This document shows, piece after piece, positions 9,889-12,914 of a stretch of DNA of 64,000 nt. The stretch is from Asaia bogorensis (GTDB lineage Bacteria > Pseudomonadota > Alphaproteobacteria > Acetobacterales > Acetobacteraceae). Positions within the stretch are counted from its first letter, which is position 1; every line of letters begins with the position of its first letter. A program made the translations under genes and the position numbers. The notes beneath the pieces are model-generated. The model was not told the DNA's origin, did no database searches, and saw only the letters and a list, made by a program, of their open reading frames with translations. The DNA is taken from assembly GCA_943333505.2 (NCBI GenBank), contig CALQTN020000004.1, forward strand, positions 1 to 64,000, read 5' to 3'.

Positions 9889-10143
9889 CTAACCCCGTCC
9901 ACCGACAAACGCATTGAAGGTGACCAGCGTCATCGTGTCCTTCACGCCGGGCAGCGACTGGATGCGCTCGGTCACGAACAGCCCGGTATCCTGGTCAGGG
10001 TTGAGGTAGAATTTCCCCAGTAGGTCGTATTGCCCGGAGGTAGAATGAAGTTCCGACAGCTCCTCAATGCTGTCGGCCGCCTCCTGCGCGACGCGGTAGA
10101 CGCGGCCCATCTCGCATTTGATGAAGACAAAGATCGGTCGCAT
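9889..10143 (-). CDS. Stand-alone Lrp/AsnC-type ligand-binding (RAM) domain protein
   Basis: An 84-residue protein made only of the effector domain of Lrp/AsnC regulators: MRPIFVFIKCEMGRVYRVA starts the first beta strand, LHSTSGQYDLLGKFYL is the central strand region and IQSLPGVKDTMTLVTF the last helix and strand. There is no helix-turn-helix, so it cannot bind DNA by itself. Members of this class bind amino acids and may form mixed oligomers with full-length regulators. AAAGGAG sits eight bases before the ATG. It is divergent from the thiamine-diphosphate enzyme gene with 104 bases between the starts, which suggests that the two share a control region. Confidence 0.85.
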   Translation of the reverse strand: MRPIFVFIKCEMGRVYRVAQEAADSIEELSELHSTSGQYDLLGKFYLNPDQDTGLFVTERIQSLPGVKDTMTLVTFNAFVGGRG

Positions 10144-10247
10144 TGCGGCACTCCTTTTGGGTTGGGGCAGTTTGCCACCGCCATCGTGGTTGCGCAAAGG
10201 AGCGCGGCGGCTATCCTGAGGCAATCAGCGACCGAGAGGCCCAGCCC

Positions 10248-11990
10248 ATGCCCGTCACCAAAAAAAACCAACCCGCTTTGCGTAGTGGCGGCCGCGTGCT
10301 GGCCGACGCACTGGTGGCGCAAGGCATCGACCATGTCTTCGCGGTCCCCGGCGAAAGCTATCTCGATGTGCTGGACGGGCTTTACGCCGACAGCAAACTG
10401 GTCAAGCTGGTGACCTGCCGGTTCGAGGCGGGGGCGGTCAACATGGCCGAAGCCTATGGCAAGCTTACCGGCCGGCCGGCCGCAGCCTTCGTCACCCGTG
10501 GTCCCGGTGCCTGCCATGGCGCGATCGGGGTGCACATCGCATTTCAGGACTCGACCCCGCTGCTGCTGTTCGTCGGTCAGATCCCGTTCGGCGAAACCGA
10601 TCGCGAGAGCTTCCAGGAAGTTGATTATCGCAAGATGTTCGCCCCGCTCGCCAAATGGGTGACCCAGATCGACGATGCCGCCCGCATTCCCGAATTGATC
10701 GCGCACGCCGTCGATGTCGCGACATCGGGCCGGCCCGGTCCGGTGGTGATTGCGCTGTCGGAAGAAATGCAGCGCCATATGGTCGCGGTCGCTGATATCG
10801 GCCGTGCCGATGTCGCGGTGGCCTTCCCAGACCCCGCAGCCATCGCCAAGATGATGGCGCTGCTCGCCAGGTCGGAAAAGCCCCTGGCGATCCTGGGCGG
10901 CACGCGCTGGACCGAGCCGGGCAGGGCGGCGATTGCAACTTTCCTCAAAGCCCACGACATTCCTGTTGCCGTCGGCTTTCGCCGTCAGGCACTCTACGAT
11001 GGCACGTCAGAAAATTTCGTCGGCGATATCGGCGTTGGCAGCGATCCGGCTTTGGTTGCCAAGGCGCGCGAAGCCGATCTCATCCTCGCCATCGGCACCC
11101 GACTCGGCGAACCGGTGAGCCAGGGCTACACCCTGTTCGACAAAACCCCCATCGTGCATATCTACCCCGATGCCGGTGAAATTGGCCGGGTGTTTCGCCC
11201 CACTCTCGGCATCGTCAGTGAACTTAATGCCTTCGCCGCCGGGGTGGTAAAACTCAAGCCCGCCCGCAAAGGCGCCAACGCCCAGCCCTGGTCGGCCTGG
11301 ACCCAGGAATTGCGCGCCCTGCGGCAAAAAGGCCGGGAGGTACCGGGATATGCCGGCAACCTTAACTTGGCTGATGCGATGCGGTCGCTGGAAACCCTGA
11401 TGGCGCCCGATGCGATCATCACCTGCGATGCGGGCAATTTTGCCACCTGGGCGCCGCGCTTCATCAACTTCGCCGATGGCCAGCGCTTCATCGGCCCGAC
11501 CAATGGGGCCATGGGCTATGCGGTGCCGGCGGCCGTCGGTGCCAAGATCGCCTTCCCGGACCGGCAGGTGATCGGCCTGGTCGGCGATGGTGGCTTCCTG
11601 ATGACCGGCCAGGAAATCGCCACCGCCTTTCACCATGGCGTCGCCCCGATCATTTTGGTGTTCAACAACCAGATGTTCGGTACCATCCGTATGTATCAGG
11701 AAGGCCGCTATCCCGGCCGGGTGTCGGGCACTGCGCTGACCAATCCCGATTTTGCCAAATTCATCGAGGCCTTTGGCGGTCATGGCGAGGTGGTCGAGCA
11801 TACCGCAGACTTTGCCGCAGCATTTGCGCGGGCCGTGGCGTCGGGCAAGCCTGCGGTGATCGAACTGCGAATGAACCCGGAGCAAATCACGACCCGCGCC
11901 ACCATCGCCGATCTTCGCGCCGCTGCCGGCGGTACCAAGAAGCCGGCCAAGCGGGTGGCGGCCGCGCGCAAGGTCAAAGGGCGGAAATGA
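10248..11990 (+). CDS. Thiamine-diphosphate-dependent enzyme (acetolactate-synthase-like)
   Basis: A 580-residue member of the acetolactate synthase/benzoylformate decarboxylase superfamily. The N-terminal PYR domain carries the catalytic glutamate in VPGES (Glu36). The middle FAD/DHS-like domain has AILGGTRW, and the C-terminal PP domain has the ThDP motif GDGGFLMTGQEIATA (from 446) ending in VFNN. It probably decarboxylates or ligates a 2-oxo acid. No small regulatory subunit is adjacent, so it is not an obvious housekeeping ilvB. I start at the ATG at 10248, preceded by GAGAGG; the frame is open further upstream but would run into the divergent promoter. The last 20 residues are Lys/Arg/Ala-rich, which is unusual for the family. 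Confidence 0.85.
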   Translation: MPVTKKNQPALRSGGRVLADALVAQGIDHVFAVPGESYLDVLDGLYADSKLVKLVTCRFEAGAVNMAEAYGKLTGRPAAAFVTRGPGACHGAIGVHIAFQDSTPLLLFVGQIPFGETDRESFQEVDYRKMFAPLAKWVTQIDDAARIPELIAHAVDVATSGRPGPVVIALSEEMQRHMVAVADIGRADVAVAFPDPAAIAKMMALLARSEKPLAILGGTRWTEPGRAAIATFLKAHDIPVAVGFRRQALYDGTSENFVGDIGVGSDPALVAKAREADLILAIGTRLGEPVSQGYTLFDKTPIVHIYPDAGEIGRVFRPTLGIVSELNAFAAGVVKLKPARKGANAQPWSAWTQELRALRQKGREVPGYAGNLNLADAMRSLETLMAPDAIITCDAGNFATWAPRFINFADGQRFIGPTNGAMGYAVPAAVGAKIAFPDRQVIGLVGDGGFLMTGQEIATAFHHGVAPIILVFNNQMFGTIRMYQEGRYPGRVSGTALTNPDFAKFIEAFGGHGEVVEHTADFAAAFARAVASGKPAVIELRMNPEQITTRATIADLRAAAGGTKKPAKRVAAARKVKGRK

Positions 11991-12296
11991 TAGGTCGACC
12001 TTCTGATTTCTTGCCGTATACCAACGTATAAAACGCAGAAAGTCCCGGCCCCCCTCCCTCCCAGCAAGGCGCCCGCCAAGATACGCTGCGCGCTCGATCG
12101 ATCTCCGATTGCGTGGCGGGAACGTCAGTTATCCATGCCGATCTGTCAGGAAACTTTACAGTAGCCATTTCAGGTGAGATTTAGGCGCTTGATTTATATT
12201 AGTAAAATTTTTGGCATTAAAATTGCTTCCTCTGTTCCAGCGTCGGAAAGTTTTCCGCCAAATCATTTGCGGAGCCTTGTTCGTCCGGAGGGTGCT
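11991..12296. other. Gene-free leader of the PEP-CTERM cluster
   Basis: About 300 bases with no gene. It contains the inverted repeat TATAC-CAAC-GTATA at 12017-12030, which could be an activator site, and a sigma-54-type promoter at 12211-12228. The stretch 12180-12230 is clearly more AT-rich than its surroundings. No terminator was seen for the gene ending at 11990. Confidence 0.6.
12211..12228 (+). promoter_or_regulatory. Sigma-54 (RpoN) type -24/-12 promoter
   Basis: The sequence TTGGCATTAAAATTGCTT has the invariant GG and GC dinucleotides separated by exactly ten bases and matches the TGGCA-N-TTGC core. It lies about 70 bases before the first PEP-CTERM start codon and points toward it. 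PEP-CTERM/exosortase systems are known to be associated with the sigma-54 activator PrsR and kinase PrsK, so the match is functionally sensible. Confidence 0.65.
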
Positions 12297-12467
12297 ATGC
12301 GCATTTTCAATGTCGCGATCGTTGCGACGATCGCTGTTCTCGTGCTGACTGACCAGGCTTGTGCCGGACAGGCGATCGAGGTGCCAGAACCTGCCTCGTT
12401 TGCGCTGTTGGCCATTGGTGCCGGCGGGGTAGTGCTGGCGAGGCTGCGTCGCAAAAACAAGAAATAG
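12297..12467 (+). CDS. Minimal PEP-CTERM protein 1 (56 aa)
   Basis: A 56-residue protein consisting of a signal peptide and a PEP-CTERM sorting signal. The first 23 residues end in an Ala-Cys-Ala signal-peptidase site (VLVLTDQACA). Five residues (GQAIE) follow, then VPEPASFALLAIGAGGVVLA, which combines the VPEP motif and a short membrane helix, then a basic tail (RLRRKNKK). Exosortases cut such proteins at the PEP motif, so almost nothing would remain as a mature chain. GGAGGG precedes the ATG. It is the first gene after the sigma-54-type promoter and is followed by two paralogues. No exosortase gene is in this window. Confidence 0.85.
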   Translation: MRIFNVAIVATIAVLVLTDQACAGQAIEVPEPASFALLAIGAGGVVLARLRRKNKK

Positions 12468-12478
12468 TCATGCCACCC

Positions 12479-12496
12479 GGCCTGGGGCCCAAGGCC
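12479..12496 (+). other. GC-rich hairpin between mini PEP-CTERM genes 1 and 2
   Basis: GGCCTGGGGCCCAAGGCC can fold into a stem with one mismatch. It has no T run after it, so it is unlikely to be a complete terminator. It could stabilise the upstream mRNA segment. Confidence 0.3.
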
Positions 12497-12543
12497 AGTC
12501 GACCGCAATAAGCTCGTTTCGGTTTTCAAAATAGGGAAGTACC

Positions 12544-12708
12544 ATGCGCCTTATTAATCTCATCACCAGCGCGGCTCTCGCCCTCGTCGCAACGACCGGA
12601 TTGGCGTTTGCCAATCAACCCATCAACGTTCCGGAACCAGCCTCGCTGGCGCTGCTCGCAATCGGCGCCGGCGGGGTAATCCTCGCGAAGCTGCGATCCA
12701 GAAAATAG
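12544..12708 (+). CDS. Minimal PEP-CTERM protein 2 (54 aa)
   Basis: Second of three tandem paralogues. The 54 residues have the same build: a 23-residue signal peptide ending GLAFA, a five-residue linker (NQPIN), VPEPASLALLAIGAGG as sorting motif and start of the helix, and a basic end (KLRSRK). GGGAAG sits just upstream of the ATG. It lies 76 bases after gene 1 and 41 before gene 3, with no promoter of its own that I can see, so it is probably read from the sigma-54-type promoter. It is missed by length cut-offs common in gene finding. Confidence 0.82.
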   Translation: MRLINLITSAALALVATTGLAFANQPINVPEPASLALLAIGAGGVILAKLRSRK

Positions 12709-12749
12709 GCACACCGCCGCTCATTTTGTGTCTGATACGGAGGTCTATG

Positions 12750-12914
12750 ATGCGTTTAGTCGATCTTGTCGCGAGCGCTGCCCTTGCCGTTGTTGCAATG
12801 ACAGGTGCCGCCTACGCTGATACGTCGCAGGCGGTGCCAGAACCCGCGTCGCTGGCGCTGCTCGCCATTGGCGCGGGCGGGGTGATCCTCGCGAAGCTCC
12901 GCCGGCGGAAATAA
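12750..12914 (+). CDS. Minimal PEP-CTERM protein 3 (54 aa)
   Basis: Third paralogue, 54 residues: a 23-residue signal peptide ending GAAYA, a linker DTSQA, then VPEPASLALLAIGAGG and the basic tail KLRRRK. Two adjacent ATG codons (12747 and 12750) follow GGAGG. I take the second because it gives the better spacing (six bases) and the same length as paralogue 2. The sorting-signal half is almost identical to paralogue 2, while the five linker residues differ completely, so selection seems to act on the targeting parts. The gene ends 25 bases before the convergent serine hydrolase gene. Confidence 0.82.
   Translation: MRLVDLVASAALAVVAMTGAAYADTSQAVPEPASLALLAIGAGGVILAKLRRRK

Follow-up and report, generated by a model that had tools for sequence, protein, structure and literature searches.

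We describe an operon of three minimal PEP-CTERM genes, whose products carry an apparent signal peptide, a five-residue linker and an exosortase sorting signal, and which in our assessment probably represents a PrsK/PrsR- and RpoN-type-controlled set of three minimal substrates of the exosortase XrtA. The exosortase A/PrsR system is known, and the 57-residue targets of XrtJ represent a partial precedent. The operon is located in the window (the whole stretch of DNA analysed, 64,000 nucleotides) and comprises, together with its neighbours, the following features:

10143-11990, forward strand: upstream neighbour, thiamine-diphosphate-dependent (acetolactate-synthase-like) enzyme; bounds of the open reading frame, the true start may be internal
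12144-12160, forward strand: predicted PrsR-type enhancer site (motif 1), TGTCAGGAAACTTTACA, 17 nt ending in TTTACA, conserved in the sister species G001 and G003
12211-12228, forward strand: -24/-12 sigma-54-type promoter (motif 2), TTGGCATTAAAATTGCTT, GG-N10-GC
12287-12292, forward strand: ribosome-binding site of copy 1, GGAGGG, assigned by sequence, conserved in G001 and G003
12297-12467, forward strand: minimal PEP-CTERM gene copy 1, 56 aa, linker GQAIE; PF07589 26.9 bits, TIGR02595 25.2 bits
12544-12708, forward strand: minimal PEP-CTERM gene copy 2, 54 aa, linker NQPIN; PF07589 26.2 bits, TIGR02595 26.8 bits
12747-12914, forward strand: minimal PEP-CTERM gene copy 3, 54/55 aa, linker DTSQA; PF07589 27.2 bits, TIGR02595 27.4 bits
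12939-14108, reverse strand: convergent downstream neighbour, serine hydrolase (beta-lactamase-like); each of the five genomes compared within the genus has an orthologue

In each product the first 23 residues, which end in ACA, AFA and AYA in copies 1, 2 and 3, respectively, are followed by the linker and then by VPEP, a helix and a basic tail (MRIFNVAIVATIAVLVLTDQACA-GQAIE-VPEP, MRLINLITSAALALVATTGLAFA-NQPIN-VPEP and MRLVDLVASAALAVVAMTGAAYA-DTSQA-VPEP). The signal-peptidase sites of the three copies were placed by eye using the -3/-1 Ala rule, and n-, h- and c-regions as well as the AxA site are, likewise by eye, visible and conserved in the minimal proteins. All three copies exceed the family cut-offs of PF07589 (26.2-27.2 bits vs 20.7) and TIGR02595 (25.2-27.4 bits vs 16), with the domain match stopping 0-4 residues from the C-terminus. 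The architecture proposed in the preliminary description (three tandem reading frames, each with an apparent 23-residue signal peptide ending in AxA, a five-residue linker and a PEP-CTERM signal) holds for every copy. Each frame possesses its own ribosome-binding site, AGGGAAG and GGAGG preceding copies 2 and 3; two adjacent ATGs in copy 3 give a product of 55 aa (first) or 54 aa (second). Genome-wide, 18 PEP-CTERM matches lie above the Pfam cut-off. The other PEP-CTERM frames span about 200-1100 codons; exceptions are L007, a broken fragment of 39 codons, and L004, whose frame is truncated where its contig ends. The three minimal genes are thus clear size outliers.

The genome (4.52 Mb, 151 contigs) contains one exosortase that could be found, and it is of the XrtA type. 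The preliminary description had suggested looking for an exosortase along with PrsK/PrsR, and XrtA (TIGR03109, 261 bits vs a cut-off of 208), PrsK (510 vs 300), PrsR (607 vs 502.6) and PrsT (549 vs 312) are all present above the curated cut-offs. These four genes reside on contig 26, which additionally carries TIGR03087, the XrtA-system deacetylase and chain-length and export genes, nearly all above their cut-offs. Several sigma-54 activators are encoded in the genome as well, and an exosortase is present in five of five genomes of the genus.

Motif 1 and motif 2 are separated by a spacer of 50 nt, and motif 2 precedes the first ATG by 69 nt. In the published description of PEP-CTERM genes from proteobacteria (Haft et al. 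2006, PMC1569441), a 17-nt motif with TTTACA at its end is followed by a spacer of 32-92 nt (63 on average) and by a 17-nt sigma-54 element, which lies on average 71 nt before the start codon. The promoter layout of the operon, with the 17-nt element at 12211-12227, falls inside these ranges and matches that of the PrsR/sigma-54 regulon. A composite search pattern, GTCNNNAAANTTTACN{42,72}GGCNNNNNNNNTGCT, run over the 4.5 Mb of the genome, yielded four matches, every one of them before a PEP-CTERM gene, although the pattern was derived from these very sites, so that the count speaks for specificity and does not constitute an independent discovery. Apart from that of the operon, the matches are found before long PEP-CTERM genes at L005, L010 and L014, and a reversed control pattern gave zero matches genome-wide. 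In a footprint comparison with the sister species, motif 1, motif 2 (block GGGCATGAAAATTGCTT in G001 and G003) and the ribosome-binding site stand out as conserved blocks in otherwise diverged intergenic DNA. The ten-base distance between GG and GC given in the preliminary description is exact. Judged by this conservation and by the paired PrsR-type enhancer site, the sigma-54-type promoter recognised there is real; for a PEP-CTERM gene of another species, RpoN dependence has been demonstrated (PMC9850573).

Five genomes of the genus were compared. A single minimal orthologue occupies the corresponding slot, flanked by the thiamine-diphosphate enzyme and the serine hydrolase, in G001 (55 aa) and in G003 (54 aa); in G004 this slot is without a gene. 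In G002 it is taken by a PEP-CTERM gene of 192 aa (L059:1616-2194, reverse strand) that is unrelated, runs in the opposite direction and lacks a PrsR site. Since the dS between the paralogues (about 0.8-1.6) exceeds the dS between species in the flanking genes (0.5-0.6), the three copies, as far as these divergences can tell, probably predate the species split; every one of them has nevertheless been kept intact. Estimates of dN/dS, which are noisy given short genes with about 45 synonymous sites, amount to 0.14-0.42 in every comparison but the very close G001/G003 pair (0.70, from only 13 differences). The least nonsynonymous change is seen in the PEP-CTERM part, while the linker shows a high level, near saturation: the linkers of orthologues differ already between close species (AVDPIS vs AVTVS), and no linker residue is conserved across the genus. 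The orthologues in two sister species, the dN/dS values below 1 and the conserved promoter blocks together place the three-gene feature beyond chance.

These data bear directly on the possibility that the genes are remains of longer PEP-CTERM genes whose middle part was lost. Long PEP-CTERM genes turn over rapidly (PMC1569441), and a fragment of this kind exists in the genome (the 39 open codons of L007). Three species, however, keep the short form with intact start, ribosome-binding site and promoter, and dN/dS stays well below 1 across paralogue distances greater than those between the species. We therefore regard the remnant reading as refuted by the short orthologues and the dN/dS values, and as highly improbable; the debris of disrupted longer genes envisaged as a refutation in the preliminary description is not what is found. 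As for the fragment itself (L007:1450-1960, G000 contig 119), it lacks a start, lies directly before an FA_hydroxylase gene and has a sequence of about 60 bp in tandem repeat upstream.

The thiamine-diphosphate enzyme, whose acetolactate-synthase-like name stems from sequence reading and not from a family search, neighbours the slot in G001, G003, G004 and G002 too, and the named matches of the downstream gene read 'serine hydrolase domain-containing protein'. For a flanking gene, the best named plasmid matches are from Skermanella and Acidibrevibacterium (about 50% identity) and have an alphaproteobacterial look. A plasmid origin was rejected, as there was no match in the plasmid collection, and so was a viral origin, as the IMG/VR matches are long PEP-CTERM proteins only. 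One contig classed as viral (L139, IMGVR_UViG_3300031132_000323) includes a long PEP-CTERM gene; a composite site of PrsR box and -24/-12 element lies at a different place on its opposite strand. A search for related loci in genome contigs returned a single match, a long planctomycete protein. A hairpin follows copy 3, but its T-run lies in the loop (z = -2.0) and it was not counted as an intrinsic terminator.

To survey the family, 397 of its genomes were searched with alignments of the minimal proteins, and the DNA was then read. Minimal PEP-CTERM genes occur outside the genus in G209 (four), G163 (a tandem pair), G162, G206, G152, G153 and G172; their linkers measure about 3-13 residues. 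This brings the total including this genus to at least ten genomes and at least seven genera. Further loci of the same design with equally short linkers, for which the preliminary description had suggested looking in relatives, hence do exist in other genera of the family. Among 11 minimal proteins from five genera, the Ala residues at -3 and -1 are nearly invariant, which suggests, at the level of sequence, that cleavage of the signal peptide matters. Where checked, neither the PrsR site nor the -24/-12 element precedes the minimal genes of other genera, and this mode of regulation thus appears particular to the present genus. In G163, locus L098 holds a second tandem pair of minimal genes, the first of them cut by the contig end; in G209, L095 and L144 carry closely similar minimal paralogues (MRIS[LI]LTSI..., ending in ACIRRRR) on separate contigs. 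A sample of 398 genomes from across the phylum yielded, at a threshold of 1e-5, just one further near-full-length match in a short frame, a protein of G558, from another family of the class. This gene (L120:1489-1680) encodes 62 residues: a signal peptide, then a short linker, then a tail that resembles PEP-CTERM but reads VPEGSS where PEP would stand. It adjoins hisA-like and thioesterase-like genes (named by sequence reading). Subscription papers aside, minimal PEP-CTERM proteins are not discussed in the literature searched.

Outside the genus, six minimal loci from five genera (L096, L097, L098, L099, L143, L146; two of them in G209, the others in G163, G162, G152 and G172) are followed after 16-53 nt by an FA_hydroxylase (PF04116) gene on the same strand, a post hoc association. 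The six enzymes are mutually only 30-43% identical. With a profile built from them, the only additional match among 150 collected loci, mostly around long PEP-CTERM genes and partly redundant, adjoins the broken fragment L007. No paper linking PEP-CTERM proteins and sterol desaturases was found in the literature searched, again aside from subscription papers. The adjacency of minimal loci to a fatty-acid-hydroxylase-family gene is thus apparently unreported so far, and a minimal PEP-CTERM gene together with an FA_hydroxylase of the sterol-desaturase superfamily is possibly an unreported two-gene unit. Such a placement would be expected of a small subunit, and the minimal proteins might accordingly be unprocessed helical hairpins, two helices with a short periplasmic loop, which serve as small partners of a membrane enzyme. 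This we consider quite unlikely: both the conserved AxA site and the PEP motif would then be needless, and no gene of an FA_hydroxylase-type enzyme lies beside the operon in the window.

The DNA itself shows the three genes and how they are conserved, the promoter with its enhancer site, and that XrtA, PrsK, PrsR and PrsT are encoded; from this we infer expression, both cuts, transfer and role as follows. Once PrsR is activated, sigma-54 RNA polymerase would start at the -24/-12 promoter and transcribe all three genes. Every product would enter the Sec pathway and be cut after AxA by signal peptidase I, while the C-terminal helix would keep it in the membrane. XrtA would then recognise the PEP signal and cut near it, the periplasmic part of the substrate comprising only about eight residues, and would transfer the remaining stub, about 5-8 residues long, to the acceptor that it normally uses. 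The effect would consist in engaging XrtA or occupying its acceptor, the sequence of the peptide being immaterial; since conservation is confined to the two processing signals, with a linker under hardly any constraint, such engagement is probably what counts.

The almost free variation of the linkers weakens the notion of a peptide precursor, if a specific signal is meant by it, but is compatible with roles that would not depend on sequence, such as competition, acceptor capping or loading of the exosortase. Specific short peptides (a signal, a toxin-like molecule or a surface tag) that have the linker as active core and are set free or conjugated once both cuts are made would explain why both processing signals and nothing else are conserved. 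The linkers of the paralogues differ from each other, as the cores of peptide precursors often do, and a Gly-rich linker with one Cys is common to L097 of G209 and L146 of G172, which belong to different genera. Against this stand the divergent linkers of close orthologues and the lack of conservation across the genus; moreover, no dedicated exporter, immunity or receptor gene is evident beside the operon. We hence judge specific peptides unlikely, and a role for which the peptide sequence does not matter (competing for XrtA, capping or loading the acceptor) appears, from the pattern of conservation, more likely than a specific peptide message. A related scenario, which we hold to be possible though not favoured, dispenses with an intended product altogether: the proteins would merely occupy XrtA, or signal peptidase and then XrtA, and thereby throttle the sorting of long PEP-CTERM proteins switched on at the same time. 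The enhancer/promoter pattern common to three long PEP-CTERM genes would ensure such co-expression, and the presence of three copies and the almost free linker sequence also fit a decoy. A conserved AxA site would, however, be needless if binding to XrtA alone sufficed, and one copy suffices in the sister species. A set of minimal XrtA substrates, probably processed at both signals and transferred, remains our preferred reading.

Compared to the PEP-CTERM/XrtA (EpsH) system with PrsK, PrsR and PrsT (PMC1569441), the operon shares the sorting signal, the exosortase, the regulators, the TTTACA box and the spacing of the sigma-54 element, but the members described there mostly form single-gene operons, whereas here three tandem genes encode almost nothing beyond two signals. 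The targets of XrtJ (TIGR04200, PExPT-CTERM) resemble the minimal proteins in total length and in a signal peptide directly followed by the exosortase signal, yet their motif is PExPT instead of PEP, and XrtA is the sole exosortase here, no exosortase J having been found in the genome. Membership in TIGR04200 was rejected, the match over positions 6-53 being weak (18.7 and 11.7 bits vs a cut-off of 40). PepA, an RpoN-dependent floc protein of Aquincola tertiaricarbonis (PMC9850573), is likewise encoded by a PEP-CTERM gene with a (mapped) -24/-12 promoter and a predicted enhancer; its gene adjoins prsT, whereas the minimal genes lie away from the XrtA cluster. In the ArtA substrates of Haloferax, a C-terminal helix signal is removed by a related enzyme and a lipid is attached at the new C-terminus (PMC7157517). 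By analogy, this lipid attachment could serve as a model for a possible XrtA acceptor, although the ArtA substrates are archaeal, carry another signal and are large S-layer proteins, unlike the minimal proteins described here.

With low confidence, we extend this picture to the alphaproteobacterial family: minimal PEP-CTERM proteins might be recurrent exosortase substrates whose peptides, about 3-13 residues long, become attached to a carrier, either a membrane lipid or exopolysaccharide. One branch would be PrsR-switched with the PEP-CTERM regulon, as in this operon, and another closely coupled to a fatty-acid-hydroxylase-family enzyme that perhaps acts on the lipid part. To our knowledge, neither the cut site nor the acceptor, including that of XrtA, nor the purpose of bacterial exosortases has been established. 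A natural substrate cut down to two processing signals and about five residues comes close to the smallest possible exosortase reporter. Its product, if detected by mass spectrometry together with the partner to which it is joined, could identify the acceptor directly, and the tie of the other minimal genes to a lipid-hydroxylase-family enzyme provides an independent genetic hint of lipid involvement.
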